From: Streptomyces sp. NBC_00536
GTDB lineage: Bacteria > Actinomycetota > Actinomycetes > Streptomycetales > Streptomycetaceae
Assembly (NCBI RefSeq): GCF_036346295.1
Contig: NZ_CP107819.1
Location: 372,001-436,000, forward strand
Length of the DNA stretch: 64,000 nucleotides
Reading direction: 5' to 3'
Part shown: positions 4,484-22,252 of the stretch, one piece after another
Numbering within the stretch: the first letter of the stretch is position 1
Layout: each line of letters starts with the position of its first letter
Program-made: the position numbers and the translations under genes
The notes under the pieces: model-generated
Told to the model about the DNA's origin: nothing
What the model saw: the letters and a program-made list of their open reading frames with translations, nothing else
Databases searched by the model: none

Positions 4484-4870
4484 CTATCCCTCCCCGGCCA
4501 CGAGGCGGGTGATCTCCTCGTCGGCCGCCCGGGCCTCCGCCCGCCGTTCCATCCGGGCCAGTTGACCCCCGTACGCCCGCAGGGCATCGATCAGGAGACC
4601 GGCCCGCCCGGGCTCCCTCGCGTACATCTCCCGTGCCGCGGCGACGGATTCGGCCAGCAGGGCGAGCTGGATCGCGGGCTCGTGCGCGAACTCCCGCGCC
4701 CCGTACTTCCGCAGCGCGCCCGCCAGCAGCGGCAGGTAGGCGAGCGGGCTCACCCGGGCGAGGATCCGGTAGGCGGCGACCCGCTCCGCGAGGAGGGGCT
4801 TCCCCGACCCCAGGAGGGCCACTCTTGCTCGTAGGACCGCGTCGTGACTGATGTGCGCCGAGAACGTCAT
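4484..4870 (-). CDS. Small all-helical (TPR-like) protein of unknown function
   Basis: 128 residues, almost entirely predicted helix. Alternating Leu/Ala patterns such as 'LARVSPLAYLPLLAGALRKY' and 'RAGLLIDALRAYGGQLARM' suggest two or three TPR-like hairpins. No signal peptide, membrane helix or catalytic motif is visible. ATG at 4870 is the first start in the frame; no strong ribosome site precedes it. It stands alone, convergent with the ABC operon. I do not recognise a family, and it may act as a protein-binding adaptor. Confidence 0.6.
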   Translation of the reverse strand: MTFSAHISHDAVLRARVALLGSGKPLLAERVAAYRILARVSPLAYLPLLAGALRKYGAREFAHEPAIQLALLAESVAAAREMYAREPGRAGLLIDALRAYGGQLARMERRAEARAADEEITRLVAGEG

Positions 4871-5011
4871 GAGGGAGATTCTGAAAGCCGCACAGGGGGT
4901 CGAACAAGGGCAATCGGCTGTGCCCTTGGTCCTACGAAAACACCCTCTGACCTGTCATGATGGATACGTATTCACCCTTGGGCCAGGAAGTGAGGGCCCG
5001 TCAGACTCCGG

Positions 5012-6478
5012 TCAGGCGCGGTTCTTCGTCCGGTCGCGCAGCCCGAGGCCGATCAGGACGCCCGCCACGAGCAGGACCGCCACGTCGAGTGCCAGGACCG
5101 TGCGCACCCCGTCGAAGAGCGAGTCCTGGGTCGTCGCCAGGACACCGAGCAGCGGGATGCCGATGGTGAGACCGACCTGCTGGGTGGTGGTCACCAGGCC
5201 GGTCGCCAGGCCCTGTTCCCCGTCCGGCACGCCGCTGGTCACCGTGACCCCGTACGAGATGATCGCGCCGAGGTGGCACATGCTGGCCGCCGACACCGCG
5301 ACGGTCGCCAGCAGCGCACCCGATCCGGCGCCCACGGCGAGCAGCACCGCGGTGAACGCGGCCTGGCCGAAGAGCGAGACCACCAGCGTGCGGCGTGCGC
5401 CGATCCGGCCGATCACCCGGGAGGCGTAGGTGCCGGCGACGGCCGACATGACCCCCTGGACGCCGAAGACCAGACCCGTCCGGAAGGACGACAGTTCCAG
5501 GGTCTCCTGGAGGTAGAGGGTGAGCACGAAGACGACCGTCGACATCATCGAGAAGGTCACCAGGCCGCCGATGTTGCCCCAGGCCACCGTGCGCCGCCGC
5601 AGCATGGGCAGGGAGACCAGCGGGGCCGGGGACTTCGTCTCCACCACGGCGAACACGGCGAGCAGCACGATCCCGGCGGCCAGCGTGCCCCAGACGTCGG
5701 CCCGGCCGAAACCGTCCTGGGCCGCCGTGGACAGGGAGTAGATCAGCGCGAGCAGACCGCCGGTGACGGTGACGGCGCCCGGTACGTCCAGCCGGGGGCG
5801 CTCGGGGTTGCGCGACTCGGGCAGCAGCCGGGGGGCCAGGACCAGCACGATCAGCGCGGTGGCCGTGAGGAGTCCCATCGTGGAGCGCCAGCCCAGCGTG
5901 TCGGTCATGACGCCGCCGAGCACCATGCCGACGGTGAAGCCGAGGGACAGCAGGGTGCCGGAGATGCCGAGGGCCTTGGCGCGCAGCGGGCCTTCCGGGA
6001 ACGTGGTGGTCAGCAGGGACATGCCGGTGGGCACGATGAGTGCCGCGCCGAGGCCCTGGAGGGCGCGCCCGGCCAGGAAGGACGCCGGGTTCCAGGCGAG
6101 GGTGGCCAGCAGCGAGGCGACGCCGAAGAGGACGAGCCCGGTCAGGAACAGCTTCTTGCGTCCGTAGAGGTCGGCGATCCGGCCGAAGAGGAGCAGGAAG
6201 CCGCCGGAGGGCAGCGAGAAGGCCGTGACCGCCCACTGGAGCTGGGACCGGCCGAGGCCCAGGTCCTTCCCGAGCACCGGCAGGGCCACGTTCAGCACGG
6301 AGAAGTCCAGGGCCACCATGAACTGGGCGGCGCACAGCACGAAGAGGACCAGCTTCGCCCGGCCGGTGAGCCGGTCGCCGCCGGGGGCCGGGGCCGGTGC
6401 GGGGGTGGCCGCGGCTGGTGCGGCGGTGGCCGCGGGGGGCGCGGCCGTGGTGCGGGAGGTCTGTGTGTCGGTGGTCAT
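5012..6478 (-). CDS. MFS drug-efflux transporter, DHA2/EmrB type
   Basis: 488 residues with about 14 hydrophobic segments, the DHA2 (QacA/EmrB) topology. 'LFGRIADLYGRKKLFLTGL' is the MFS motif A loop between helices 2 and 3, and 'GISGTLLSLGFTVGMVLGG' is a motif-C-like antiporter segment. The N-terminal 45 residues are Thr/Ala/Pro-rich and cytoplasmic. Start is ATG 6478, preceded by AGGTGGGG; a longer frame exists upstream but lacks a ribosome site. Divergent from an XRE/MmyB regulator with an inverted repeat between them, so it is probably repressed by that neighbour and induced by its exported compound. Confidence 0.92.
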   Translation of the reverse strand: MTTDTQTSRTTAAPPAATAAPAAATPAPAPAPGGDRLTGRAKLVLFVLCAAQFMVALDFSVLNVALPVLGKDLGLGRSQLQWAVTAFSLPSGGFLLLFGRIADLYGRKKLFLTGLVLFGVASLLATLAWNPASFLAGRALQGLGAALIVPTGMSLLTTTFPEGPLRAKALGISGTLLSLGFTVGMVLGGVMTDTLGWRSTMGLLTATALIVLVLAPRLLPESRNPERPRLDVPGAVTVTGGLLALIYSLSTAAQDGFGRADVWGTLAAGIVLLAVFAVVETKSPAPLVSLPMLRRRTVAWGNIGGLVTFSMMSTVVFVLTLYLQETLELSSFRTGLVFGVQGVMSAVAGTYASRVIGRIGARRTLVVSLFGQAAFTAVLLAVGAGSGALLATVAVSAASMCHLGAIISYGVTVTSGVPDGEQGLATGLVTTTQQVGLTIGIPLLGVLATTQDSLFDGVRTVLALDVAVLLVAGVLIGLGLRDRTKNRA

Positions 6479-6527
6479 GGCCCCACCTTCGCCGCCCGGG
6501 AATGCCCGTGCAGAGTGGGAACTTATG

Positions 6528-6546
6528 CTGGTGGTGGCACCACCAG
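6528..6546. promoter_or_regulatory. 19-bp palindromic operator between MFS pump and its regulator
   Basis: Perfect inverted repeat CTGGTGGTG-g-CACCACCAG in the 89-bp divergent intergenic region, 49 bp from the MFS start and 21 bp from the regulator start. Overlapping -10-like hexamers (TATGCT on +, TAAGTT on -) lie just to its left. A likely binding site for the neighbouring XRE regulator; binding itself is inference. Confidence 0.6.
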
Positions 6547-6567
6547 GCAGCCAGTAGGGGGATTTTC

Positions 6568-7440
6568 GTGGCCACACCGATCGACAAGCACCGGCGCTCC
6601 GAACTCCGCGAGTTCCTCATGAGCAGACGGGCGCGGATCACCCCGACGGAGGCCGGACTGCCGGACGGCGGGGCCCGCCGCCGCACCCCGGGCCTGCGCA
6701 GGGAAGAGGTCGCGGTGCTCGCCGGGGTCGGGGTCTCCTGGTACCAGTGGCTGGAGCAGGGCCGCGACATCACGGTGTCCCCCCAGGTGCTCGACGCGGT
6801 GGGCCGGGTCCTGAAGCTGACCAGCGCCGAGCAGCGGCACCTGTACGTGCTGGCGGGTCTCAACCCGCCCGCCCCGCAGGTCGCGCCGTCCGCGCAGAAC
6901 ATGTGTGACGGGCTGCAGCGGCTGATCGACGCGTGGATGCCGTTCCCCGCGCACATCATGGACGTCTACTGGAACACCGTGATGTACAACGACGCGGCCT
7001 CGATGGTGCTCGGCATGCGTCCCGAGATCGTGCAGAACTGCCTGATCGCGTTCTTCACCGACCCCCTCTACCGGTCGCGCACCAAGCGCTGGGAGGAGAT
7101 CGCCTCCCACGTGGTCGCCCAGTTCCGGGCGGCGTGCTCGGAGACGCCGAACGACGACGGGTTCCGCGCGGTCGTCGAGGAGGCGAGGGAGGTCAGCCCG
7201 GTGTTCTCGGACCTGTGGGAACGGCGCGACATCGAGCCGGGCGGTCAGCTGCAGAAGGAGTTCGAACACCCCGTGGTGGGCGCACTGTTCGTCGAGTCGA
7301 CCCAGCTGCGCGTACCGGCCCGCCCCGACCTGTCCATCGTCCTGCACACTCCCCTGCCGGGCACCGACACGGCCGAGAAGCTGGAGTGGCTGGCGTCGCC
7401 GGAGGGGCGTCGCGGGTCCATGTACCCGATCGCGGGCTGA
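6568..7440 (+). CDS. XRE-family transcriptional regulator with MmyB-like ligand domain
   Basis: 290 residues. Residues 8-85 hold a helix-turn-helix with the actinobacterial hallmark 'RRRTPGLRREEVAVLAGVGV' and 'SWYQWLEQGRDI'. Residues 105-260 form the MmyB-like domain, which binds small lipophilic ligands in its family (seen as 'PAHIMDVYWNTVMYNDAAS'). Start is GTG 6568 with AGGGGGA at good spacing; a longer frame has no ribosome site. Divergent from the MFS pump, so the pair resembles a one-component efflux switch. Ligand unknown. Confidence 0.88.
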   Translation: MATPIDKHRRSELREFLMSRRARITPTEAGLPDGGARRRTPGLRREEVAVLAGVGVSWYQWLEQGRDITVSPQVLDAVGRVLKLTSAEQRHLYVLAGLNPPAPQVAPSAQNMCDGLQRLIDAWMPFPAHIMDVYWNTVMYNDAASMVLGMRPEIVQNCLIAFFTDPLYRSRTKRWEEIASHVVAQFRAACSETPNDDGFRAVVEEAREVSPVFSDLWERRDIEPGGQLQKEFEHPVVGALFVESTQLRVPARPDLSIVLHTPLPGTDTAEKLEWLASPEGRRGSMYPIAG

Positions 7441-7560
7441 GGACGGGCGGGCCCCGGAAGCGGGTCCGGGCGCGGGCGCGGGCAGCCATGCTCCCATCCC
7501 CTGCGGGGGAGCAGGACCGCCCGACACGGAACACCCGGCCCGCAGGAGGGTCCCACCCCC

Positions 7561-7593
7561 GCCCAACGTCGGCCTAACGCCCCGCTAACGGAG
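7561..7593 (+). promoter_or_regulatory. Three 11-bp-period direct repeats upstream of the SARP gene
   Basis: Three units of 11 bp carry CCAACG (7563), CTAACG (7574) and CTAACG (7585). Heptamer direct repeats with 4-bp gaps are the known layout of SARP/AfsR binding sites. They lie about 145 bp upstream of the AfsR-type gene. No clear -10 follows at the expected 8 bp. The rest of 7441-7735 holds a weak inverted repeat (CCCCGCG 7615-7621, CGCGGGG 7639-7645) and nothing else I can name. Confidence 0.45.
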
Positions 7594-7735
7594 CACCGGC
7601 CGACCGTCCGGCTCCCCCGCGGATCCGGTGGCCGGGCCCGCGGGGATAAATGGCCGGAGACCCCCTCATGTGTCGAAATGGGCCGCCGTACCCTCGGCCG
7701 GGGGGCCGTGACGCGTTGAGCAAGGTGGTTGTCGC

Positions 7736-10492
7736 ATGGAGTTCCGCGTGCTCGGACCCGTGGCCGTGGTGTCGGAGCGGGGGGAGCCGCTGCCCCTGGG
7801 CCCGGCCAAGCGGCGCGGTCTGCTGGCCATGCTGGTGCGGTGCCCCAACGCGGCCGTCGCCGTCGACCGGCTGACCGAGGCGCTGTGGCGGGGGGAGCCG
7901 CCCCGGCACTCGCGCACCGTGGTGCAGGGGCACGTCTCGCAGCTACGGGCTCTGCTGGCCGCGCACGGGGCGCCCGCCCACGGCGTCGAACTGCGCACGC
8001 ACGGAGCGGCGTACCTCCTGCGGGTGCCCGAAACCCGGGTGGACGCGCACCGCTTCGAGGAACTGCTCCGGGCCGCCCGGGCCGCGGGCGCACCGCGCGC
8101 GGCCCTGCCCGTGCTCCGGGAGGCGCTCGCGCTGTGGCGGGGGCCCGCGCTCGCCGGGACGGTGGACAGCCCGCTGCTGGAGCACGCCGCGCACGCGCTG
8201 GAGGAGCTGCGGCTGACGGCCGTGGAGGAACTGGCCGGGGCGCACGCGCTCCTCGGCGAGCACGGCACGGCGGCGGCGGTGCTGCGCGCCGAGGCCGTCG
8301 CGCACCCGCTGCGGGAGCCGCTGATCGCCGCGCTGATGCGGGCCCTGGACGGGGCGGGGCGGCAGGCGGACGCCCTGGACTGGTTCCACCGCACCCGACG
8401 GCTGCTGGCCGATCAGCTCGGCGTGGATCCCGGAGCGGTGCTCACCGACGCGTACACCGCTCTACTGCGGACCGGCTCCGCAGCGGCTCCCGCCGCCGCG
8501 GCCCCGATCCGGGGCGCGCTGCCTGTACCGGCCCCCGCACAGGCCCCCGCCACGGCCTCGACGCCGATACCGGCCCCGACGCCCACGGCCGTGGTTCCGG
8601 CCGCCCCGGCCGCCCCGTTTCCGCAGCTCCTCCCCCGCCGTCCCCGGGCCTTCACCGGGCGCGAGGACGAACTGGCCGCGCTCGACCGGGCCGTGACCGC
8701 CGCCCCCGGCGCCGTCGCCCTGATCACCGGCAGCCCCGGCGTCGGGAAGACCGCGCTCGCCGTGCACTGGGCGCACCGGCGCGGCGCGGACTTCCCCGAC
8801 GGCCGGCTCTTCGTCGACCTCCACGGGTACAGCACCGTCCCGGCGCGCAGCCCCACCGCCGTGCTCCGCGCGTTCCTGCTCGCCCTGGGCCTGCCCGCCG
8901 AGCAGATGCCCGGCTCCGCCGAGGCGCTGGGCGCCCGCTACCGCGAACTGACCGCCGCACGGCGGATGCTGATCGTCCTGGACAACGCCCGCGACTCCGG
9001 GCAGGTCCGTCCGCTGCTGCCGGGCGGGGAGCACTGCGTCACCGTGGTCACCGGCCGGGACCGGCTCGGCGGCCTCGTGGCCTCGGACGCCGCCCGTCCG
9101 GTCCCGCTCGCCCAGCTCCCCGCCGCCCGGTCCACCGAGCTGCTCGCGGCCGCGCTGGGCCCGGACCTGGGCCCGGAGCTGGTCGCCGCCGAACCGGAGG
9201 CCGCCGCGCGGCTCGCCGCGCTGTGCGAGGGCCTGCCGCTCGCCCTGCGGGTCGCCGCCGCCCGGCTCGCCACCGATCCGCACCGCGGGCTGGCCGCCTT
9301 CGTGCGCGAACTCTCCGACGAACACCGCAGACTGGACCTGCTGAACCTCGAAGACACCGGTGTCGGCGCCGCCCTCGGCCTCACGGTGCGGCAACTGCCC
9401 GAACCGGCGCGGCGGATGTTCCACCGGCTCGGTCCGCACACCGGCGCGACCCTCGACACCTGTACGGCCGCCGCGCTCGCCGACTGCCCGCCGGACCGGG
9501 CCGCCGTCGCGCTGGACCAGCTGGCCGCCGCCCAGCTGGTCGTCGAGGCCGGGCCGCGGACGTACGTACTGCACGACCTGGTCCGCCTCTACGCCCGCAG
9601 CCTGGCCCCCGGGCACGACCCCGCCGGGCTGATCCGGCTGCTCGACCACTGGCTGAGCACGCTCCTCGCGGCGAGCGCCGCCGCGGAGCCCGGCAGCGAA
9701 CCCTGCTGCGCCCTGCCCGCCGGTGCCCGGCCGTCCGCCGCGATCCGCGGGTTCGCGGACCGTACGAGCGCGCTCGCCTGGTACTCCGCCGAGCGGGACA
9801 CCCTGCGCGGGGCCGTCGACGCCGCCGTCGCGGCGGGGCTGCACGGCCGTGCCTGGCGGCTGGTCCTCCTCCAGTGGCCGCTGATCCTGTGGCAGGTCCG
9901 GGACGGCTGGGTGCCGCTCCTCGAACAGGGCCTGGCCTGCGCCGAGCGCGACGGCGATCCCGGCGCCCAGTCACGGGCCCGCGCCCTGCTGGGCTGGGTG
10001 CTCGCCGAGGAGGGCCGGTCCGAGGAGGCCCTCGGCCACCTGGAACGCGCCCCCGGCCTCTCCGCCCTGGCGGGCGACCCCGCCGGGGAGGCCGTGGCCC
10101 GGATCAACCTGGCCGTCGCGCTCACCCGGCGCGGCACCCCCGAGCGGACCCGGGAGCTGCTGGTGCGCGCGCTGGCGCTGGCCGAGGAGGCCGGACGTAC
10201 CGAGACGGTCACCCTCGCCCACCAGCACCTCACCGCGCACCTCCTGGCCGTCGGCGCCCCCGCCGAGGCCGCCCGCCACGCGGCGCGTGGGCTGGCCCTC
10301 GCCGCGCCCCCGCTGGCGGCGCCCCGGCGCGTGGTGCTGCGCACCCTGTACGGGGAGGCGCTCGCCGCGACGGGCCGTACCCCCGAGGCGGTGCGCCAGC
10401 TGGACGACGCGATCAGGGAGGCCCGGGCGCACGCGTACGAGGAGGGCGAGATCGCCGCCCGCGCGGTCCTGGCCGGGCTCCCCCGGCCCTGA
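7736..10492 (+). CDS. AfsR/SARP-family regulator: OmpR-type DNA-binding, BTAD, NB-ARC and TPR domains
   Basis: 918 residues. Domains in order: winged-helix trans_reg_C (1-95), bacterial transcriptional activation domain (98-243), an Ala/Pro-rich linker (245-300), an NB-ARC STAND ATPase with Walker A GSPGVGKT (332-339) and Walker B 'RMLIVLDNA', then winged-helix and TPR-like repeats from about 650 to the end. This is the AfsR layout, usually a pleiotropic or cluster-linked activator of secondary metabolism. ATG is preceded by AAGGTGG. No recognisable biosynthetic cluster adjoins it, so its targets may lie elsewhere. Confidence 0.92.
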   Translation: MEFRVLGPVAVVSERGEPLPLGPAKRRGLLAMLVRCPNAAVAVDRLTEALWRGEPPRHSRTVVQGHVSQLRALLAAHGAPAHGVELRTHGAAYLLRVPETRVDAHRFEELLRAARAAGAPRAALPVLREALALWRGPALAGTVDSPLLEHAAHALEELRLTAVEELAGAHALLGEHGTAAAVLRAEAVAHPLREPLIAALMRALDGAGRQADALDWFHRTRRLLADQLGVDPGAVLTDAYTALLRTGSAAAPAAAAPIRGALPVPAPAQAPATASTPIPAPTPTAVVPAAPAAPFPQLLPRRPRAFTGREDELAALDRAVTAAPGAVALITGSPGVGKTALAVHWAHRRGADFPDGRLFVDLHGYSTVPARSPTAVLRAFLLALGLPAEQMPGSAEALGARYRELTAARRMLIVLDNARDSGQVRPLLPGGEHCVTVVTGRDRLGGLVASDAARPVPLAQLPAARSTELLAAALGPDLGPELVAAEPEAAARLAALCEGLPLALRVAAARLATDPHRGLAAFVRELSDEHRRLDLLNLEDTGVGAALGLTVRQLPEPARRMFHRLGPHTGATLDTCTAAALADCPPDRAAVALDQLAAAQLVVEAGPRTYVLHDLVRLYARSLAPGHDPAGLIRLLDHWLSTLLAASAAAEPGSEPCCALPAGARPSAAIRGFADRTSALAWYSAERDTLRGAVDAAVAAGLHGRAWRLVLLQWPLILWQVRDGWVPLLEQGLACAERDGDPGAQSRARALLGWVLAEEGRSEEALGHLERAPGLSALAGDPAGEAVARINLAVALTRRGTPERTRELLVRALALAEEAGRTETVTLAHQHLTAHLLAVGAPAEAARHAARGLALAAPPLAAPRRVVLRTLYGEALAATGRTPEAVRQLDDAIREARAHAYEEGEIAARAVLAGLPRP

Positions 10493-13634: not shown

Positions 13635-15965
13635 ATGCGTCTGCTCAGACTCCTGATCGCCGCCGTCCTGGCCGTGGCCGCACTGGCCCTCGCCCCACTG
13701 ACCGTACCCGCGGCCGCCGCCCCGGCCGCGCCGCCCGCGCAGGCCGCCGCCGGACCACCCCAGACCATCCCGGCGCTACGGCAGTGGACGGCCGGCACCG
13801 GCGCGTACACCTTCACGGGCACCAGCCGGATCGTGGTCGACCCCGCGTCCGCGGACCGGCTCTCCGACGAGGCGGCGACGCTGGCCGAGGACCTGGGGGC
13901 CCTCGCCGGGCGTCCGGTGACCGTCGTGACCGGCAGCGCCTCCCCCGGTGACATCGCCCTCGCCCTCGGGGACGCCACGCTGCCCGCGGAGGGCTACCGG
14001 ATGACCGTCGCGGCGACGCTCACCATCCAGGCCGGGACCGACACCGGCGCCTTCTACGGCACGCGCTCGGTCCTCCAGCTGCTGCACCAGTCCCCCTCCG
14101 TCCCGGCCGGCACCGCCGTGGACTGGCCGGCCAAGGCCGAGCGCGGACTGATGATCGACCAGGGCCGCAAGTTCTTCACGGTCGACTGGGTCAAGCAGCA
14201 CATCAAGGAACTGGCCTACCTCAAGCTCAACTACTTCCACTTCCACCTGTCGGACACCTTCGGCTTCCGGCTGGAGAGCGCCACGCACCCCGAGATCGTC
14301 TCCGCCGACCACTACTCCAAGCAGGACATCGCCGACCTGGTCGCGCTCGGGCAGAAGTACCACGTCACGATCGTGCCGGAGATCGACACCCCGGGGCACA
14401 TGAACCCGATCCTGGCCGCCCACCCGGAGCTGAAGCTCAAGAGCAGCACGGGCGCGGTCAGCGCCGACTTCATCGACCTGTCCCTGCCCGCCTCGTACGC
14501 CCTGATCAAGGACCTGGTCACCGAGTACCTGCCGCTGTTCCCGGCCGCGTACTGGCACATCGGCGCCGACGAATACGTCACCGACTACTCCAAGTACCCG
14601 CAGCTGCTCAGCTACGCCCGCGCCCACTACGGCGCGAACGCGACCGCCAAGGACACCTACTACGGGTTCGTGAACTGGGCGGACGACCTGGTCCGGGCGG
14701 GCGGCAAGACCACCCGGATGTGGAACGACGGCATCAAGGCCGGGGACGGCACCCTCACCCCGAACCCGGGCATCCTCGTCGAGTACTGGTACAACTACGG
14801 CCTCACCCCGCAGCAGTTGGCGGCGGCCGGGCACAAGGTCGCCAACGAGTCCTGGACGCCCACCTATTACGTGCTCGGCGGCGCGAAGCCCGACACCCGC
14901 TGGATGTACGAGACCTGGACCCCCGATCTGTTCGAGGGCGGCAACACCCTCACCGACCCGGCCAAGAACCCCGGATCGCTGATCCACGTGTGGTGCGACA
15001 ACCCGGGCGCCGAGACGGAGGCACAGATCGCCGCGGGCATCATGAACCCGCTACGGGCCCTCGCCCAGCAGACCTGGGGGTCGCCGAAGCCGGTGAGCAC
15101 CTACGCCGCCTTCACCCCGATCGTCACCGCGGTCGGGCACAACCCGGCCTGGCCCGGACTCGCCCAGCCGGGCAACCTCGCCCGCAACCGCCCGACCACC
15201 GCCTCCAGCACCGAGACGGCCAGCTTCCCGGCGGCCGCGGCGACCGACGGCGACCCCGCCACCCGCTGGTCGAGCGCCTACACCGACCCGCAGTGGCTCC
15301 AGGTCGACCTCGGCTCCACCCAGGCCGTCAGCAGGGTGGTGCTGCGCTGGGAGGCGGCGTACGGCAAGGCCTTCCAGATCCAGTTCTCCGACGACGGCTC
15401 GGCCTGGCGCACCGCGTACACGACCGCCACCGCGACCGGCGGGGTCCAGGACCTCACCGGCCTCTCCGGCTCCGGCCGCTACATCCGGCTGTACGCGACC
15501 CAGCGCGGCACGGCCTACGGCTACTCCCTGTACGAGTTCGAGGTGTACGGGGGGCCGCTGAGCGGGACCCGGACCCTCACCGCCGCGGGCAAGGCGCTGG
15601 ACGACCCGGCGAGTTCCACGGCCTCCGGCACCCAGCTGATCACCTGGACCCCGCACGGCGGCCCCAACCAGCAATGGCAGCTGAGCCTGAACACCGACGG
15701 GACCTACACCCTGGCCAACGCCCTCTCGCACCTGTGCGTGGACGTGGCGGGCGGCTCCACCGGTGCGGGCGCGGCCGTCGTCCAGGCCACCTGCACCGGC
15801 GGCGACAGCCAGCACTGGCTCTTCACCGCCCTCGGCGGCGGCGAGTACGCGGTGACCGGCAAGAAGAGCGCGCTCCTGCTGACCACGGCCTCCGCGGCGG
15901 ACGGCTCCCCGGTCAGCCAGCAGCCGTCCGGCGGATCCGGTGCGCAGCGGTGGCAGATCAGCTGA
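13635..15965 (+). CDS. Secreted GH20 beta-N-acetylhexosaminidase with F5/8C and ricin-type lectin modules
   Basis: 776 residues. Signal peptide (about 1-32, AAA-rich cleavage region). The GH20b domain spans roughly 45-150 and the GH20 barrel 155-500. The catalytic Asp-Glu pair is D312-E313 in 'WHIGADEY', where the usual motif is HxGGDE. 'NYFHFHLSD' and 'VPEIDTPGHM' are conserved barrel strands. An F5/8-type C carbohydrate-binding module (about 515-635) and a ricin-B QxW lectin domain (640-776) follow. Likely releases GlcNAc from chitin-derived or glycan chains outside the cell. No dre (DasR) site was found upstream. Confidence 0.93.
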   Translation: MRLLRLLIAAVLAVAALALAPLTVPAAAAPAAPPAQAAAGPPQTIPALRQWTAGTGAYTFTGTSRIVVDPASADRLSDEAATLAEDLGALAGRPVTVVTGSASPGDIALALGDATLPAEGYRMTVAATLTIQAGTDTGAFYGTRSVLQLLHQSPSVPAGTAVDWPAKAERGLMIDQGRKFFTVDWVKQHIKELAYLKLNYFHFHLSDTFGFRLESATHPEIVSADHYSKQDIADLVALGQKYHVTIVPEIDTPGHMNPILAAHPELKLKSSTGAVSADFIDLSLPASYALIKDLVTEYLPLFPAAYWHIGADEYVTDYSKYPQLLSYARAHYGANATAKDTYYGFVNWADDLVRAGGKTTRMWNDGIKAGDGTLTPNPGILVEYWYNYGLTPQQLAAAGHKVANESWTPTYYVLGGAKPDTRWMYETWTPDLFEGGNTLTDPAKNPGSLIHVWCDNPGAETEAQIAAGIMNPLRALAQQTWGSPKPVSTYAAFTPIVTAVGHNPAWPGLAQPGNLARNRPTTASSTETASFPAAAATDGDPATRWSSAYTDPQWLQVDLGSTQAVSRVVLRWEAAYGKAFQIQFSDDGSAWRTAYTTATATGGVQDLTGLSGSGRYIRLYATQRGTAYGYSLYEFEVYGGPLSGTRTLTAAGKALDDPASSTASGTQLITWTPHGGPNQQWQLSLNTDGTYTLANALSHLCVDVAGGSTGAGAAVVQATCTGGDSQHWLFTALGGGEYAVTGKKSALLLTTASAADGSPVSQQPSGGSGAQRWQIS

Positions 15966-15995
15966 CGCAGATCAGCTGACGCAGATCACCTGACC
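15954..15995 (+). repeat. Three tandem 14-bp repeats across the GH20 stop codon
   Basis: Units CAGATCAGCTGACG (15954), an identical copy (15968) and a diverged copy CAGATCACCTGACC (15982). The first contains the stop codon, so a slippage duplication at the end of the gene is the simplest origin. Confidence 0.8.
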
Positions 15996-16004
15996 GCGAA
16001 ATCC

Positions 16005-16020
16005 ATCAACGATCGTTTCC
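16005..16020 (+). promoter_or_regulatory. Border element, copy A
   Basis: ATCAACGATCGTTTCC. It matches copies at 16162-16177 and 20111-20126 (other strand), giving the consensus WTCAASGATCGTTTCN with a GATC core. It sits beyond the 3' end of the XRE/ImmA/membrane cassette. Confidence 0.5.
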
Positions 16021-16067
16021 CTGGATGAACCCATCAGAACCCCGCCCCCGGGTCGGACGAACCCTGT

Positions 16068-16099
16068 CCGCCGCTGGCCAAGTGCCTGACCAGCGGCGG
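16068..16099 (+). terminator. Hairpin terminator after the GH20 gene
   Basis: Perfect 10-bp stem CCGCCGCTGG / CCAGCGGCGG with a 12-base loop, followed by a T-rich run (TTTCAGGGGTTTT). It lies 100 bases after the stop. Confidence 0.7.
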
Positions 16100-16161
16100 T
16101 TTCAGGGGTTTTCGCACGCCAAATCCAGCGTCGGCGGACGCGGAGACTCCGAAAGGAAACA

Positions 16162-16177
16162 TTCAAGGATCGTTTCA
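16162..16177 (+). promoter_or_regulatory. Border element, copy B
   Basis: TTCAAGGATCGTTTCA, the second copy of the 16-bp element, in the same orientation as copy A and 157 bases from it. Nothing I can call a gene lies between them. Confidence 0.5.
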
Positions 16178-16217
16178 CTTGCGCAATCGATCATCGATCT
16201 GGTCTAGTGGCCACGCG

Positions 16218-16245
16218 GCCCCGGGGAGGAAGTCCTCCCCCGGGC
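16218..16245 (-). terminator. Terminator of the membrane-protein/ImmA operon
   Basis: Near-perfect 13-bp inverted repeat (GCCCCGGGGAGGA against TCCTCCCCCGGGC, one mismatch), ten bases beyond the stop at 16255. Confidence 0.7.
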
Positions 16246-16254
16246 AGGAAACGG

Positions 16255-17478
16255 CTAGCGTTGCGGCACCGGTATATCGGGGGTGTGCCGCAGCGCGGCC
16301 GCTTCACGGAAGGACCGCACGATGTCCGAGGACAGCGCGCGGGACATCCGCACCAGTCCGGAGGGGTCATCGGGGGAGACCAGGACGGAACGGTGGTTCT
16401 GCCGCAGGGGGTCCGCGCCTTCGGGCAGCGGGACGCGCCACGCCCACGCCACCACCGCGTGGGCGAGCGCGGCCGCGTCCGCGGTCGCCTCGGCGTCCTC
16501 GGCGCAGCCGGTGGTCTCGCGCGCCCTGGCCAGGGCCCGTTCCCGTACCGCGGCGTCCAGGTACGGGCTCACGGTGAGGATCCCGTCGTGGATGTCGGCC
16601 TCCAGCTGGGTCACGCGCAGTTCGATGGAGGCCCGTGGCCCTTCGGCGAGTTCCCGCGTGTGCTGGGTCGCCGCGCTCAGCTCCTTCCACAGGGGCCGCA
16701 GCTGACGGAACCGGCGCCACAGGTCCCGGTGGCTCGTGAACCGCTGTGCGGCGAGCGGCAGTACGAACCCGCCGCCGATCAGGATCACCGACAGCGAGGC
16801 GACGACGGGGGCCACCCCCTCGCTGAGGTAGTCCCGGTCGTGACCGAACCAGCGGAATCCGATCGCGGTGAACTTCAGCCCGTCGTAGAGCAGGTTGAAC
16901 AGGTGGCCGACGCAGATGAGGATCAGCCCGGCCCGCAGGGCGCCGTGCACCTGCCGCGCCCACACCCAGCACAGGGCGGTCACGATGATCCCGTTCGCCG
17001 TGTGGGCCAGCAGGTAGAGCAGGAGCATCTCGCGGATGTAGGGCGTGGTCGCGTAGTAGGTGTCCATGTCGGTGAGCCGCTCCACCGGTGCGTCACCCAG
17101 CACGAACAGGACGTTGATCAGGCCCACGACCGCCGCGGTGACCAGATAGCAGCGACGCGCCCACCGGGCCGACCACGCGGCCTTCTCCGGCCCGCTGTTC
17201 CACCGGATGATCAGCACGATGCTCGCACCGCAGAAGGCGGTCAGCAGCGAATACACCAGTGGCGCGGCGGCGTTCGGCACTCCGGTGAAGCGGTTGATCG
17301 CCTTGAGCGAGGGCACGGCGGTGGCGAAGTCCACGCACACCGCCAGGCCGAGCACCGCGCAGACGGACCTCAGCAGTTCGTTGCGCGGGTCCCGCCACAG
17401 GGCCGGGAGCCTGAGCAGCAGGATGACGACCAGGAAGGCACCCGGTATGTAGAAATCGAGGCCTTGCGAGCGCATCAT
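16255..17478 (-). CDS. Seven-helix membrane protein, MAB_1171c/DUF6545-like (second paralogue)
   Basis: 407 residues. Seven hydrophobic segments fill roughly residues 8-270, then a cytoplasmic domain of about 130 residues. It is a clear paralogue of the gene upstream. Both share 'FYIP/YYIP...LPAL' at the start, '(I/V)NR-TGV', 'DMDTYYA-TP-IREM' in a loop, 'DYLS--VAP', then 'PLW--L' and 'E-D(I/L)HD--L...PY-D' in the tail. The family is annotated elsewhere as a putative transporter, but no transport motif is visible; a sensor role fits equally. Start is ATG 17478, overlapping the upstream stop as ATGA. Last gene of the operon. Confidence 0.82.
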   Translation of the reverse strand: MMRSQGLDFYIPGAFLVVILLLRLPALWRDPRNELLRSVCAVLGLAVCVDFATAVPSLKAINRFTGVPNAAAPLVYSLLTAFCGASIVLIIRWNSGPEKAAWSARWARRCYLVTAAVVGLINVLFVLGDAPVERLTDMDTYYATTPYIREMLLLYLLAHTANGIIVTALCWVWARQVHGALRAGLILICVGHLFNLLYDGLKFTAIGFRWFGHDRDYLSEGVAPVVASLSVILIGGGFVLPLAAQRFTSHRDLWRRFRQLRPLWKELSAATQHTRELAEGPRASIELRVTQLEADIHDGILTVSPYLDAAVRERALARARETTGCAEDAEATADAAALAHAVVAWAWRVPLPEGADPLRQNHRSVLVSPDDPSGLVRMSRALSSDIVRSFREAAALRHTPDIPVPQR

Positions 17479-18710
17479 CGTGCGACCTTCCGTGCGGGTA
17501 CGGCGGGCCGGGCGGGCCCGGTGGTCACCGTCCGGCGGGAGAGCACCCCATAGTGCCGCGCGACCCGGGCGAGCGTGTCGCCGCCCCCTCCCAGGACCAG
17601 GGAGACCGCCTCGAACCCGGCGGCCGCCGCGGCCCCGTCGAGCTGCTCCGGCCCCGCGCCCCGGTCGGCGGCGGCGGTGGTGGCGGTGGCGGTGGCGGTG
17701 GCCACGGCGGCCGCGATCATGGTGGCGGCCGCGGCGCACCGGGCCTCCCCGGGCCCCGTCCCGGCGCGCAGGGCCGCCTCGTGGGCCTCCGTCATGACGT
17801 CCGGGTCGCAGTACGGGGCGAGGGCGATCAGCTGGTCGTGGAGGTCCGTTTCCCGGTAGGCCAGGCGGTCGTCCAGCGACGGCCTGCGCAGCGTCAGCGT
17901 CAGGTCCGGCTCACGGGCGATGGCCCGCAGGTCGCGCCAGAGCGGACCCATCCCCCGGTACCGCCGCCAGGTGCCCAGGAGCACGCCGACGCGCTCCCCC
18001 TGCGGGATGAGGAAGCCGGCCGCGCAGAGCAGCGATCCGAGACCCGCCATGGGCGGCGCGACGTCACTGCTCAGGTAGTCGAGGTCGGCGCCGGACCAAC
18101 GGGCGGCGAGGGCGACGGCCTTGGCCAGCCCGAAGCAGGTGCCGAGCGCGAAACCGGCGACGAGGCAGCGCAGTCCGGCCCGGACCCAGCCCTCGGCCTC
18201 GCGCAGCCACCGGCGGCACATGCGGGTGAGCGTGGCGTAGATCGCGGTGTGCCAGAGCAGGTAGAGGACGATCATCTCGCGGATGCCCGGGGTGGACGCG
18301 TAGTAGGTGTCCATGTCGCGCACCCGCTCGCTCGGTGCGTCCCCGGAGGCGAAGAACAGCGCGATCGACACGATGACGAGGGCGCCGCCCCACAGCCACG
18401 CGCGGACCTGCCGCCGGACCTCCGCGCCGAAACCGCTGCGCCAGTAGGTCAGCAGCACCATGGCCAGGGTGCTGCACCCGCTGATGATCGAGTAGACGAG
18501 CGGGCCCGAGATGTTGTCGACACCGGTCGTCCGGTTGACGTACCCGATGGTGGGGGGCGCGGCAAAGAAGAAGCCCGCACCGATGAGGAAGATCAGCCCG
18601 GCGACCCCCCGGACCATGGGGTTGCGCCACCTGCGCGGCAGGGCGGGCAGTTTGGCGAGGAAGACCAGGGCGAGCACCACGGCCGGGATGTAGTAGTCCG
18701 CACTGCTCAT
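17475..18710 (-). CDS. Seven-helix membrane protein, MAB_1171c/DUF6545-like (first paralogue)
   Basis: 411 residues. Seven membrane segments (about 5-260) and a cytoplasmic tail. The tail carries an Ala/Thr-rich low-complexity run ('AAAVATATATATTAAADRG') absent from its paralogue, encoded by a GGTGGC-type simple repeat near 17670-17705. ATG 18710 has a strong GGAGGA site and overlaps the ImmA stop as TGATG, so translation is coupled to the protease. The invariant loop 'DMDTYYASTPGIREM' is the best candidate for a functional site. By context it works with the ImmA/IrrE protease. Confidence 0.82.
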   Translation of the reverse strand: MSSADYYIPAVVLALVFLAKLPALPRRWRNPMVRGVAGLIFLIGAGFFFAAPPTIGYVNRTTGVDNISGPLVYSIISGCSTLAMVLLTYWRSGFGAEVRRQVRAWLWGGALVIVSIALFFASGDAPSERVRDMDTYYASTPGIREMIVLYLLWHTAIYATLTRMCRRWLREAEGWVRAGLRCLVAGFALGTCFGLAKAVALAARWSGADLDYLSSDVAPPMAGLGSLLCAAGFLIPQGERVGVLLGTWRRYRGMGPLWRDLRAIAREPDLTLTLRRPSLDDRLAYRETDLHDQLIALAPYCDPDVMTEAHEAALRAGTGPGEARCAAAATMIAAAVATATATATTAAADRGAGPEQLDGAAAAAGFEAVSLVLGGGGDTLARVARHYGVLSRRTVTTGPARPAVPARKVAR

Positions 18711-19282
18711 CAGTCCTCCGAGCCTCCGAGGGACGACTGGATCCGCTGCCCGGGGCCGTTGAGCAGCCGCTGGCCGGGATGGTGTTCGACGTGGCGGCGC
18801 ATCCTGCTGCCGAACCGGCGCCCGAACGCCTCGGCCTCGGCCTCGTCGCCGGGAACGGCGTGCGTCCGCGCGGCGACGCTGAGGATGGCCTGGTCGAGCG
18901 GCCCCGGGCCGAGGACGTCGACCAGCAGCCGGGTCGCGGCCTGCGAGCCGTGTTCGTGGGTGCCGCAGTGACCGCGGACCATGTGCCAGATCTCGTGCCC
19001 CAGGATGACCAGGGAGTGGAACGGGCTCGTGCTCCGCACCACGACGATCACGTCCTCGTGCTCGCGGTCCAGCCACAGCCCGGACAGGCCGGGCGGGAAG
19101 TTGCGCCGAAGCACCCGCACGGGACGGCCGCGCAGCTCGGTCAGATAGCCGGCCACCTTGCCGAACAGCTCGTCCACATCGGCCGGCGCCGGGCCGCGCA
19201 GCGCGGCGTCCAGCTCGCCGCACAGCTTCGCCATCTCCTCTTCCAGCTGTTGCTGCCGCCGCCTGTTACCGAAGATCCCCAC
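18710..19282 (-). CDS. ImmA/IrrE-family metallopeptidase
   Basis: 190 residues. The zinc motif HEIWH (96-100) sits in 'LVILGHEIWHMVRGH', with a downstream Glu-rich helix 'DEAEAEAFGRRFG' (146-158) supplying the third ligand, as in ImmA/IrrE (M78) proteases. Family members cleave XRE-type repressors on a signal, for example ImmA on ImmR and IrrE on DdrO. Such genes are often labelled 'toxin component' in automatic annotation. GTG 19282 has GAGGGG upstream. An XRE gene lies directly upstream on the same strand, its natural substrate candidate. Confidence 0.85.
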   Translation of the reverse strand: MGIFGNRRRQQQLEEEMAKLCGELDAALRGPAPADVDELFGKVAGYLTELRGRPVRVLRRNFPPGLSGLWLDREHEDVIVVVRSTSPFHSLVILGHEIWHMVRGHCGTHEHGSQAATRLLVDVLGPGPLDQAILSVAARTHAVPGDEAEAEAFGRRFGSRMRRHVEHHPGQRLLNGPGQRIQSSLGGSED

Positions 19283-19301
19283 CCGCAAAACCCCTCGCGA
19301 A

Positions 19302-19361
19302 GCACACCGTCCGCGGGCGGTGTGCGTGCCCTCTCCCCGTGCTCCCGCCGAGCGGCGGAGC
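19302..19361 (-). promoter_or_regulatory. Two hairpins in the ImmA leader
   Basis: GCACACCG-N8-CGGTGTGC (19302-19325) and GCTCCCGCCG-ag-CGGCGGAGC (19341-19361, one bulge) lie between the regulator stop and the ImmA start. They could terminate the regulator transcript or attenuate the operon. Confidence 0.5.
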
Positions 19362-19433
19362 CGACCTCTCACGTGCCGACATCACACGTGCCGACCTCAC
19401 GTGCAGACCTCGCACGTGCCGACGTCACACGTC
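19361..19433. repeat. Five tandem 15-bp repeats (pentapeptide-like) between regulator and protease
   Basis: Units of 15 bp of the form CCGACnTCnCACGTG start at 19361, 19376, 19391 (13 bp), 19404 and 19419. Read on the + strand they encode ADLSR-ADITR-ADLT, then, after the 2-bp loss in unit 3, ADLAR-ADVTR in another frame. That is the exact period and consensus (A-D/N-L-x-x) of pentapeptide-repeat proteins. No start or full gene surrounds them, and the last unit overlaps the end of the XRE gene. Either a pseudogene scrap or a CACGTG operator array. Confidence 0.7.
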
Positions 19434-20009
19434 CTGCTGGTCCTCTTCGATCGAGTCGATGAGGGCCTGCATCACGGCGCGCGTCTTGGGCGACGTACCC
19501 CGCAGGGCGAACCCGTTGAGCTGGTTCTTGCGTTTGAAGTCCTGGAGTTCGGCCAGCTGCCGCGAGCGCTCCTCTTCCAGCCGCTCCCGCAGGGCCCGGT
19601 CGAGGGCCTGGGAGGGGGTGGCCGTCAGGAAGCCCCGCGACACCTGGAAGAAGTCCTCGATCCGGGCCGCGTGCTCCAGCGAGGGCGCCTTCTCGCCGCG
19701 CAGGAAGCGGCCGAACCACTGCGGGGTCAGCCCGGCTCCGTGCGCGATCTCGGCCTGCGTGTACGGCCTGCCCGCCGGGCCCATCCGGGTCCGGCGCAGG
19801 AATTCCAGCCGCTGGGTGACCTGCTGGAGGAAGTCGCTCTCGGGCAGCGGCCGCCGGTGCAGGCCGGCCACCACCACCGATTCGGGCAGGCCGGTGCTCC
19901 GGGACAGCGGCTCCGGGTCGAGGGTCACGGCCCAGTCCAGCTCCGCTTCCTCGATCAGTCCCTCCAGAAGCGCCAGGCTCTTCAGATGAGGGCTTTCCTC
20001 GTCGCTCAC
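19425..20009 (-). CDS. XRE-type helix-turn-helix regulator of the ImmA/membrane cassette
   Basis: 194 residues. An unusual 65-residue N-terminal extension, rich in acidic and Leu residues, precedes the HTH (about 66-130, 'YTQAEIAHGAGLTPQWFGRF'). A Glu/Arg-rich helix (135-165) and a short tail follow. Start is GTG 20009, preceded by AGGAG at five bases; a GTG six bases upstream would overlap that site. A repressor cleaved by the downstream ImmA-like protease is the working model. Border element C lies about 100 bp upstream of its start. Confidence 0.85.
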   Translation of the reverse strand: MSDEESPHLKSLALLEGLIEEAELDWAVTLDPEPLSRSTGLPESVVVAGLHRRPLPESDFLQQVTQRLEFLRRTRMGPAGRPYTQAEIAHGAGLTPQWFGRFLRGEKAPSLEHAARIEDFFQVSRGFLTATPSQALDRALRERLEEERSRQLAELQDFKRKNQLNGFALRGTSPKTRAVMQALIDSIEEDQQDV

Positions 20010-20096
20010 GTTCACTCCTGGCTGGCTTGCTTGTCCCGTACGTAGCGGCCGACAGGGCAGTGCCCGTCCCGCCTCGTCACTGAATCAGATCAGCGA

Positions 20097-20126
20097 TCGG
20101 TTCTACAACCGAAACGATCGTTGAAT
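20097..20126 (-). promoter_or_regulatory. Border element copy C with adjoining inverted repeat, upstream of the XRE gene
   Basis: On the minus strand TTCAACGATCGTTTCG (20126-20111) is followed directly by TCGGTT-N4-AACCGA (20112-20097). It stands in the divergent region between the XRE gene and the HTH gene at 20208. This is the only border-element copy in a promoter position, which suggests the element is the cassette's own operator. Confidence 0.5.
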
Positions 20127-20172
20127 CCACCTTCCCTCCCTACCCCATCACTCCGCATCCTTCCCCATATTC

Positions 20173-20193
20173 CCTCAAGAGGGTTGTTTGAGG
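20173..20193 (+). promoter_or_regulatory. MerR-like inverted repeat before the HTH gene
   Basis: CCTCAA-N9-TTGAGG, with halves like those of SoxR/MerR sites (spacer longer). It overlaps the GAGGTAAGG ribosome site of the gene at 20208, so binding there would block translation or late transcription. Autoregulation is inference. Confidence 0.45.
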
Positions 20194-20207
20194 TAAGGTC
20201 CGTACCC

Positions 20208-20705
20208 ATGGAGAATCCAGAACGCGAGCTGTACTCGGTCGGCGAGGTCGCCGAGCGGCTGGGGCTCCACGTGCGGACCGTCCGGAACTACGTCCGCGAC
20301 GGACGGCTCAAAGCCGTCCGGATCGGCAAGCAGTACCGGATCAGCCACGAGGACTTCGAGGCGCTGACCCGGCGGCCGCTCACCGGCCGGGACCCGGCCC
20401 CGGCGGCGGCCGCCGCCCAGCGCGGCCATCTGGAGGTGTCGAGCATCGTGCAGCTCGACCCGATCGGCCCGGAGGCGGCGAGCCGGCTGAGCACCCTGGT
20501 CACGGCCGCCGTACAGGGCCCGCGGGACACGCCGCAGGCCCTGCGCGTCCAGACCGTCTACGACAAGGAGCGAGCCCGTATGAAGATCGTGGTCCTCGGC
20601 AGTGCCGTCGACACCGCCGACCTGCTCCATCTGATCGACGGCGCGCTCGGACCGGAGAACGGCCTGTTCCCGTCCGGCGCCCGGCAGGAGGCCCCCCGTG
20701 CCTGA
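20208..20705 (+). CDS. Excisionase/MerR-type helix-turn-helix protein with extra C-terminal domain
   Basis: 165 residues. Residues 6-58 hold the HTH_17 (excisionase-like) pattern 'YSVGEVAERLGLHVRTVRNY' and 'RIGKQYRISHEDFEAL'. A Pro/Ala linker follows, then an alpha/beta domain of about 75 residues with a beta strand 'MKIVVLG' whose family I do not recognise. ATG 20208 has GAGGTAAGG. Its stop overlaps the next gene by eight bases, so both are made together. No integrase is nearby, so a recombination role is unlikely and a regulator is more likely. Confidence 0.8.
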   Translation: MENPERELYSVGEVAERLGLHVRTVRNYVRDGRLKAVRIGKQYRISHEDFEALTRRPLTGRDPAPAAAAAQRGHLEVSSIVQLDPIGPEAASRLSTLVTAAVQGPRDTPQALRVQTVYDKERARMKIVVLGSAVDTADLLHLIDGALGPENGLFPSGARQEAPRA

Positions 20706-21060
20706 CGTCCTCGTGGAGCACCACGGCGTACCCGTCCTGGTCTGCGCCGCCGACGGCCCGCCGATCGCCACCGAGCAGGACGCCCTCGACCACCTGATCG
20801 GCGCGGCCTACCACCGGGCGGAGGCGATCGCGGTCCCGGCCGAGCGGTTCGACGACCGCTTCTTCGACCTCAGCAGCGGGATCGCCGGGGCGATCCTGCA
20901 GAAATGCGTGACCTACGGGATCCACCTGATCGTCGTCGGGGACATCTCGCACCACCTGCGGGCGAGCAAGGCCCTCCCGGACCTCGTCCGCGAGTCGAAC
21001 CGGGGCCGCCACGCCTGGTTCGTGGACGACCTCGACGCGCTCGCGGCCCGGCTGGCGTAA
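20698..21060 (+). CDS. DUF4180-like small protein
   Basis: 120 residues, GTG start inside the end of the upstream HTH gene. 'FFDLSSGIAGAILQKCVTYG' and 'IHLIVVGDIS' match the DUF4180 pattern as I remember it: a compact alpha/beta protein with a central helix 'SGxAGxILQK'. No catalytic residues are known. Pairing with an excisionase-type HTH gene suggests it modulates that regulator or senses a ligand for it. Confidence 0.75.
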   Translation: MPDVLVEHHGVPVLVCAADGPPIATEQDALDHLIGAAYHRAEAIAVPAERFDDRFFDLSSGIAGAILQKCVTYGIHLIVVGDISHHLRASKALPDLVRESNRGRHAWFVDDLDALAARLA

Positions 21061-21106
21061 CCGGGTCCGGGGCGCGGGAACGGGCACGCCGGTGTATCCA
21101 GGAGCC

Positions 21107-22252
21107 ATGGGTCATCGGCTGCGCCACCCGGTGAAGGGCCGGTTCCGGGAACCGCGCCTGGCGCTGCTGCCGGTGCCCTTCGCCCTGATCGCCCTGGTCA
21201 CCACGGTCGACGTACTGGCGCCGCCGGGTGTCCATCTCGGCCCGTTCCTGGTCGCCGCGCCCGCGCTGACCGCGTCCTTCTCCGGGCCCCGGATGACCGG
21301 GTTCGTCGGCGCGGTGGCGGTGCTGGCCCAGGCCGTGGTGGCCGTCGTACGGACCAACCTCACCGACCTGAACCACACCATCCAGATCGTCGCGCTGGTG
21401 CTGATCTCGGTGTTCGTCACCCTCTTCGCCCATCTGCGCGAGGTCCACGAGCGGCAGCTGACCCAGCTGCGCTCGGTGGCCCAGGCCGCCCAGCAGGTCG
21501 TGCTGCGGCCGCTGCGCGAGCGGATGGGTCCGCTGCGCCTGGCGTCCGTGTACCTGGCCGCCGAGGCCGAGGCGCAGATCGGCGGGGACCTGTACGCCGC
21601 CACGCGCACCCCGGACAGCACCCGGCTGATCATCGGTGACGTCCGGGGCAAGGGGCTGGAGGCCGTGGGGGAAGCGGCCCTGGTCCTCGGCGCCTTCCGG
21701 GCCGCCGCGCACCAGGAGGCCGATCTGCCGGGGCTGGTCGCCCACCTGGAGGCCGCCGTCGTGGCGGACCCGGACGACCCGTACGAGGCGAACGGCGAGG
21801 TGGCCCCGTACGACGGGGGCGACGCCTCCGACTGGCACCGCGAGCAGTTCACCACCGCGGCCGTGCTCGACGTACCGGACCGGGACATGACCCTGCGCCT
21901 CGTCAGCTGCGGGCACCCGCCACCCCTGCTGCTGCGCGGCGGCCGGGTCCTCCCGCTGGAGGTGGACCACCCGGCGCCGCCGCTCGGCCTCACCGAGTTC
22001 GCGGACGGCGGCTTCGCCGCGCAGTCGTTCCCCTTCGAGCGCGGGGACGTCGTCCTCCTGTACACCGACGGGGTCATCGAGGCGCGGAACGCGGCGGGGG
22101 ACTTCTACCCGCTGGCGGAGCGGGCCGCCGACTGGCCCGGCGACGGCCCGGAAGCCCTGTTGCGCCACCTGTGCGCGGACCTGCTCGCCCACTCCCCCGG
22201 CGGGCACTTGGGGGACGACGCGGCGATGGTGGCCATCGAGCGGATCGGCTGA
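21107..22252 (+). CDS. Membrane-anchored PP2C/SpoIIE-type serine phosphatase
   Basis: 381 residues. Four hydrophobic segments (about 20-110) precede a PP2C-like SpoIIE domain: 'IGGDLYAA' and 'IIGDVRGKGLEA' supply metal-binding Asp residues, then 'SCGHPPPLLL', 'LYTDGVIEAR' and 'GDDAAMVAI'. Such enzymes dephosphorylate anti-anti-sigma proteins or act in signalling. The start is uncertain: ATG 21107 has AGGAG only two bases away, and GTG 21092 lacks a site. No anti-sigma partner is adjacent. Confidence 0.85.
   Translation: MGHRLRHPVKGRFREPRLALLPVPFALIALVTTVDVLAPPGVHLGPFLVAAPALTASFSGPRMTGFVGAVAVLAQAVVAVVRTNLTDLNHTIQIVALVLISVFVTLFAHLREVHERQLTQLRSVAQAAQQVVLRPLRERMGPLRLASVYLAAEAEAQIGGDLYAATRTPDSTRLIIGDVRGKGLEAVGEAALVLGAFRAAAHQEADLPGLVAHLEAAVVADPDDPYEANGEVAPYDGGDASDWHREQFTTAAVLDVPDRDMTLRLVSCGHPPPLLLRGGRVLPLEVDHPAPPLGLTEFADGGFAAQSFPFERGDVVLLYTDGVIEARNAAGDFYPLAERAADWPGDGPEALLRHLCADLLAHSPGGHLGDDAAMVAIERIG

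Follow-up and report, generated by a model that had tools for sequence, protein, structure and literature searches.

M78 metalloproteases are familiar as cytosolic enzymes that set off derepression. The protease PprI cuts the repressor DdrO and the protease CapP cuts the repressor CapH, and both enzymes are triggered by single-stranded DNA (PMC10904395). Gene pairs encoding COG2856 proteases and Xre regulators have been treated together in another study, which sets Xre-membrane protein pairs aside; the combination of protease, regulator and membrane protein is absent from its treatment of these pairs (PMC2701414). Here, we describe a four-gene cassette that brings these three components together, found in a window of 64,000 nucleotides (the whole stretch of DNA analysed) that is part of the 9.15-Mb genome, in four contigs, of Streptomyces sp. 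NBC_00536. Its genes and their immediate surroundings are as follows.

19425-20009, minus strand: REG, an XRE-type regulator of 194 residues, with a helix-turn-helix at about residues 81-130 (HTH_3 E 1e-4, just under the cut-off)
18710-19282, minus strand: PROT, an M78 (ImmA/IrrE-fold) metalloprotease of 190 residues, with an HEIWH motif and a GTG start, assigned from its model fold
17475-18710, minus strand: MEM A, 411 residues, seven transmembrane (TM) helices plus a DUF6545 domain (NF042915 122.6 bits, cut-off 100; PF20182 56.2 bits, cut-off 24.4)
16255-17478, minus strand: MEM B, 407 residues, seven TM helices plus a DUF6545 domain (NF042915 114.4 bits; PF20182 54.9 bits; model pLDDT 92.7)
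16218-16245, minus strand: hairpin and possible terminator directly 3' of the MEM B stop (folding z -4.4 for the 101-nt stretch at the MEM B 3' end)
20208-22252, plus strand: divergent HTH_17, DUF4180 and SpoIIE-phosphatase genes adjoining the cassette

The first-pass annotation had described four genes on one strand with the last three coupled, and the reading-frame coordinates bear this out: the PROT stop and the MEM A start have one base in common (TGATG), the MEM A stop and the MEM B start overlap as ATGA, and REG is separated from PROT by 142 nt. Named relatives of the cassette proteins come from Streptomyces in nearly all cases, and a search for related loci in named genomes gave 37 pattern matches, none of which was confirmed. 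The divergent HTH_17, DUF4180 and SpoIIE genes were rejected as cassette members, being unmatched beside ten other cassette loci except for a 29% SpoIIE match in L149.

PROT has no Pfam or NCBIfam match of its own, and the PF06114 profile, which does not match it, reaches E 0.01 or better in 10 of 30 relatives (best 0.0019). Its model matches the folds of IrrE, PprI and CapP and has the M78 fold; its HEIWH sequence is of the HExxH type, and residues H96, E97, H100 and E147 are invariant across 30 aligned relatives. At one locus (L072 of G352, 5040-6677) a protease and a DUF6545 domain are encoded in one frame that lacks the seven-TM part; an M48 peptidase gene comes next. No second full-length fusion of this type was present among the matches listed for 392 genomes, which leaves one isolated deletion as a possible origin, and the fusion was not retained as proof of contact between the protease and DUF6545.

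The association of these genes is real and conserved. A draw of 396 genomes from the phylum yielded 42 DUF6545 matches in 18 genomes, the source genome included, and 38 loci, in each of which profiles seeded with the window proteins were run. The membrane gene is immediately preceded by the protease gene, in the same orientation, at 32 of the 38; the six exceptions are a locus with the protease downstream (L047), one with a monooxygenase in between (L056), the fused L072 and three loci out of the 38 in which no protease was found (L055, L068 and L074). A regulator match on the same strand is present in 20 of the 38 loci and missing from 18, with opposite-strand matches in L061, L076 and L077 and, farther off, in L057. 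The source genome has seven membrane genes in six loci, the protease being found beside all six and the regulator in five. Among 61 genomes of the same genus the protease profile matched in 47 and the membrane profile in 48, which corresponds to 47 genomes with both, 13 with neither, one with the membrane protein only (G403) and none with the protease only (Fisher p 2e-12); up to 11 membrane matches were counted in one genome. Of the 150 membrane matches listed, 118 directly follow the protease gene, another 12 occupy the second place in a tandem and the remaining 20 do neither. Among the 150 protease matches listed, 92 have a regulator no more than 900 nt upstream. For 13 a regulator is present while no membrane gene on the same strand is listed inside 10 kb, which indicates that the membrane protein is dispensable for the regulator-protease pair. 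Full triplets make up at least 67 of the 118 protease-membrane pairs among the matches listed, a lower bound because 112 of the 150 listed regulator matches were used.

Membrane genes standing without the protease are thus not the rule (32 of 38 loci and 118 of the 150 matches listed have it directly upstream), and the earlier impression that the membrane proteins look wired to the protease holds as a strong genomic pairing (32 of 38 loci; Fisher p 2e-12). The regulator fared less evenly as a member of the conserved neighbourhood: at least 67 of the 118 pairs are triplets, but it is fairly often missing, with a same-strand match in 20 of 38 loci. The membrane-protease link can therefore be regarded as well supported by genomic pairing, and the presumed protease-regulator link draws both on genomic pairing and on the behaviour of related proteases. 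A stretch of 18 kb in one contig (G432 C2, L116) contains two cassettes in head-to-head orientation, and both have monooxygenase matches in their vicinity. As for the proposal that the signalling cassette is undescribed, its parts already bear family names (DUF6545 or MAB_1171c, toxin component); as a system, no description of such a cassette was found in the openly licensed literature, and that search returned nothing on DUF6545 or on IrrE together with EspR.

The DNA around the genes carries copies of one element, listed below.

20078-20125, minus strand: conserved putative operator block of 48 bp upstream of REG, with two half-sites 21 bp apart, also present before REG orthologues
16162-16209, plus strand: second copy of the block, located 3' of the cassette genes and oriented towards the end of MEM B (pattern match with one mismatch)
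16006-16019, plus strand: a further exact half-site, TCAACGATCGTTTC (sequence match)

Copies of TCAACGATCGTTTC at 16006 (plus, exact), 16163 (plus, one mismatch), 20090 (plus, two mismatches) and 20111 (minus, exact) confirm the observation that the cassette is bracketed by this element. At up to three mismatches the window holds 7 matches against 1.8 expected, a number that no shuffle reached. In the whole 9.15-Mb genome the two exact copies are those at the cassette, one-mismatch matches number two, one of them away from it, and the limit of two mismatches gives 24 matches, 22 of them with one or two mismatches, of which three either lie at or next to the cassette or deviate at one position. 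The same 48-bp block precedes orthologous regulators, 60-65% identical to REG, in three other species (G407, G594 and G654), and for this reason it is read as a putative operator, rather than as the end of a mobile element or an invertible segment; the half-site spacing is 21 bp in the window, G407 and G594. Allowing up to three mismatches, the block pattern has one match each in G407, G594 and G654 and two in the source genome (before REG and at 16162-16209), none elsewhere in the four genomes, and none with reversed-pattern controls. Scans of 15900-20300 returned neither a T-tract terminator nor a sigma-70-type promoter, and in view of the latter result the block is described as a putative operator and not as a promoter. 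The copy at 16162-16209 is identical to the G407 copy at 41 of 48 bases and to the REG copy of the window at 35 of 48; the hairpin at 16218-16245 lies between it and the 3' end of MEM B, and no gene is seen for it to drive; it is perhaps connected with an antisense RNA or is a relic.

A sister clade of regulators (L123-L148) has AATGCCACGATAGTTGACA, with one or two changes, upstream of the regulator in 26 of 26 loci examined. This is another element, with a core related to the window block, and in the 12 genomes tested it occurs once per genome, always before the regulator, with no control match. Since the strict sites are found only at cassettes, the regulators look local and dedicated and, as judged from these strict sites, a genome-wide regulon was rejected; the counts point to REG acting locally and not across the genome. 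The 65 N-terminal residues of REG, initially called novel, are so in having no Pfam match, but the extension is not peculiar to this protein, being conserved among its relatives (30 found, 26 aligned with REG). In searches with PADLOC and PHROGs, REG was the only cassette protein to match, and did so weakly, and the capH profile matches REG weakly over its whole length (E 0.002). A profile built on the broader set of regulators associated with these cassettes, which includes a mycobacterial EspR-like protein, matches EspR structures at E 3e-45, whereas EspR chains do not appear among the matches of the profile of REG's own clade down to E 1; likeness to the EspR family is thus a property of the wider set, from which REG's own clade differs. 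In two genomes from another family of the class (L076 and L077, about 4800-7500) an EspR-like regulator gene, in what we take to be the espR locus of mycobacteria, is convergent with a protease-DUF6545 pair. At L103 and L104 (about 7100-7900) a gene divergent from a regulator-protease pair that has no membrane gene presumably resembles a stand-alone version of the ligand-binding domain of MmyB-type regulators.

The explanation that we consider best, and hold with moderate confidence, is a receptor-gated proteolytic derepression switch with a dedicated repressor, for which we infer repression, cleavage, receptor-protease contact, signal and output as follows. REG would bind the operator before its own gene and keep the operon low, and MEM A and MEM B would act as a receptor pair whose conserved outer loops take up the signal. 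The resulting change would travel along TM7, which extends far into the cytosol, to the DUF6545 bundle, and this bundle may hold or activate the M78 protease; PROT would then cut REG, turning the operon on. Because regulator, protease and receptors share one operon, such a switch would reinforce itself until the signal ends. In favour of this reading are the protease-membrane pairing, the regulator upstream of 92 listed proteases, the fold in common with the repressor-cutting PprI and CapP, the modelled architecture of MEM B with its conserved outer loop, the strict operator block and the age of the MEM A/MEM B pair. Against it weigh the 18 of 38 loci lacking a same-strand regulator match, the 13 listed proteases that have a regulator but no listed membrane gene, the three loci in which no protease was found, the negative promoter scan and the weakness of the Foldseek matches of MEM B. 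The working output of the switch in relatives is likely to be the flavin monooxygenase of the operon, which the window copy does not have.

This monooxygenase (PF01494) was matched in 13 of the 17 phylum-draw loci of the DTYYA clade, on the other strand in L074, before the membrane gene in L056 and about 2.4 kb behind it in L069. A match is also present in 12 of another 13 loci of the clade, hand-picked for tandems, gaps or orthologous regulators; the window cassette, L060, L062, L064 and L111 are without it. In other clades the same place is occupied by an amidase in two loci and an amidohydrolase in one (10 proteins scanned). Such neighbours would acquire a different meaning if the cassette were a membrane-tethered protein processing unit, a reading to which we assign a minor but appreciable probability. 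In that case DUF6545 would anchor an M78 protease responsible for the maturation or turnover of some other protein, such as the flavin monooxygenase or amidase encoded alongside in relatives, and the XRE protein would merely autoregulate rather than serve as substrate. It would agree with the tighter pairing of the protease with the membrane protein than with the regulator, and with the monooxygenase that also adjoins protease-membrane pairs having no regulator (e.g., L067, L070, L071, L073 and L075). On the other hand, there are the 13 listed regulator-protease pairs with no listed membrane gene, the window cassette itself has no monooxygenase, and the M78 proteases PprI and CapP act on XRE-type repressors (PMC10904395), all of which speak against such a processing unit.

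The receptor role that this switch gives to MEM A and MEM B has to be weighed against the name of their family, since both proteins pass the curated cut-offs of DUF6545 and of MAB_1171c, a putative transporter. They share 39% identity over 308 residues and, as had been noticed at the outset, have in common the loop DMDTYYA-TP-IREM and the stretch E-D-(I/L)-HD...PY-D. The MEM B model (pLDDT 92.7) is a seven-TM bundle in which TM7 runs on as a helix into a cytosolic helical domain; its nearest folds are GPCR-like and it has the seven-TM GPCR-like fold, by Foldseek matches that are weak (best E 0.06), and the fold-match lists contain no bacterial seven-TM sensor kinase, an absence that says nothing against one. 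The most conserved compartment of MEM B is the predicted outer TM4-TM5 loop. In a midpoint-rooted FastTree of 65 membrane proteins the two members of the tandem sit in different, cross-species branches at 14 of 15 tandem loci, with the order swapped in L069 and L116 as the sole exception, and the first members are spread over more than one clade. By this tree MEM A and MEM B, initially described as tandem duplicates, are paralogues of long standing rather than products of a recent duplication; since the pair was evidently kept over several species, different roles of its two members are suggested. It is improbable, in our judgement, that these proteins work in transport or efflux under a regulator of their own, with the protease resetting regulation after uptake. 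Apart from the family name, such a system would accord with a MAB_1171c knockout of M. abscessus that halved biofilm and was read by its authors in terms of transport (PMC8707978), but no transporter family covers the proteins (one of 29 members has a marginal permease match, AA_permease_2, E 0.002), and in MEM B the GPCR-like fold and the direct continuation of TM7 into the cytosolic domain speak for a receptor. That the cassette is a toxin-antitoxin system, as the database name of PROT relatives ('toxin-antitoxin system, toxin component') would have it, is very improbable, for despite the high copy numbers (as many as 11 membrane matches in one genome) and the listing of COG2856-Xre pairs as predicted toxin-antitoxin systems, no known toxin family was found in the four genes (Pfam, NCBIfam, PADLOC and PHROGs), the neighbours in relatives are metabolic enzymes, and the study that lists these pairs favours repressor cleavage for COG2856 proteases and, for the type II systems it treats, reports none with a membrane component detected (PMC2701414).

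If the derepression switch is correct, it would constitute a short pathway from membrane to gene that works without phosphorylation, and both of its core genes are present in 47 of the 61 same-genus genomes sampled. It would also give an M78 protease a route to answer a signal from outside the cell and replace two doubtful database names, toxin component and putative transporter; with one strict operator per regulator, a single reporter could read signal, cleavage and output. More tentatively, and as a possibility in which we place limited confidence, Actinobacteria may use receptors of GPCR-like fold without kinases or G proteins, in which the conserved seven-TM pair gates a cytosolic M78 protease that destroys a dedicated repressor with a strict operator confined to its own cassette, giving a self-reinforcing on-switch; the flavin monooxygenase found in most relatives would make or destroy the sensed molecule, and several cassettes in one Streptomyces cell would provide parallel chemical channels.

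Among described families, MEM A and MEM B belong by curated cut-off to DUF6545/MAB_1171c, named for a putative transporter, whereas their architecture and neighbours here suggest a receptor. MEM B resembles G-protein-coupled receptors in fold alone, and as a shared fold is not homology, membership is not claimed. The inferred logic is that of BlaR1-BlaI and MecR1-MecI, in which membrane sensor, metalloprotease and repressor belong to one system (PMC7593790); there, however, sensor and M56 protease form one polypeptide, whereas here they are encoded by separate genes and the protease fold is nearest to IrrE, which sets the cassette apart from the BlaR1/MecR1 class. With IrrE/PprI-DdrO, ImmA-ImmR and CapP-CapH the cassette shares an M78-fold protease encoded next to an XRE-type repressor; PprI and CapP respond to single-stranded DNA (PMC10904395), whereas the closest genomic partner of the protease described here, which would likewise cleave its repressor, is a seven-TM DUF6545 protein.
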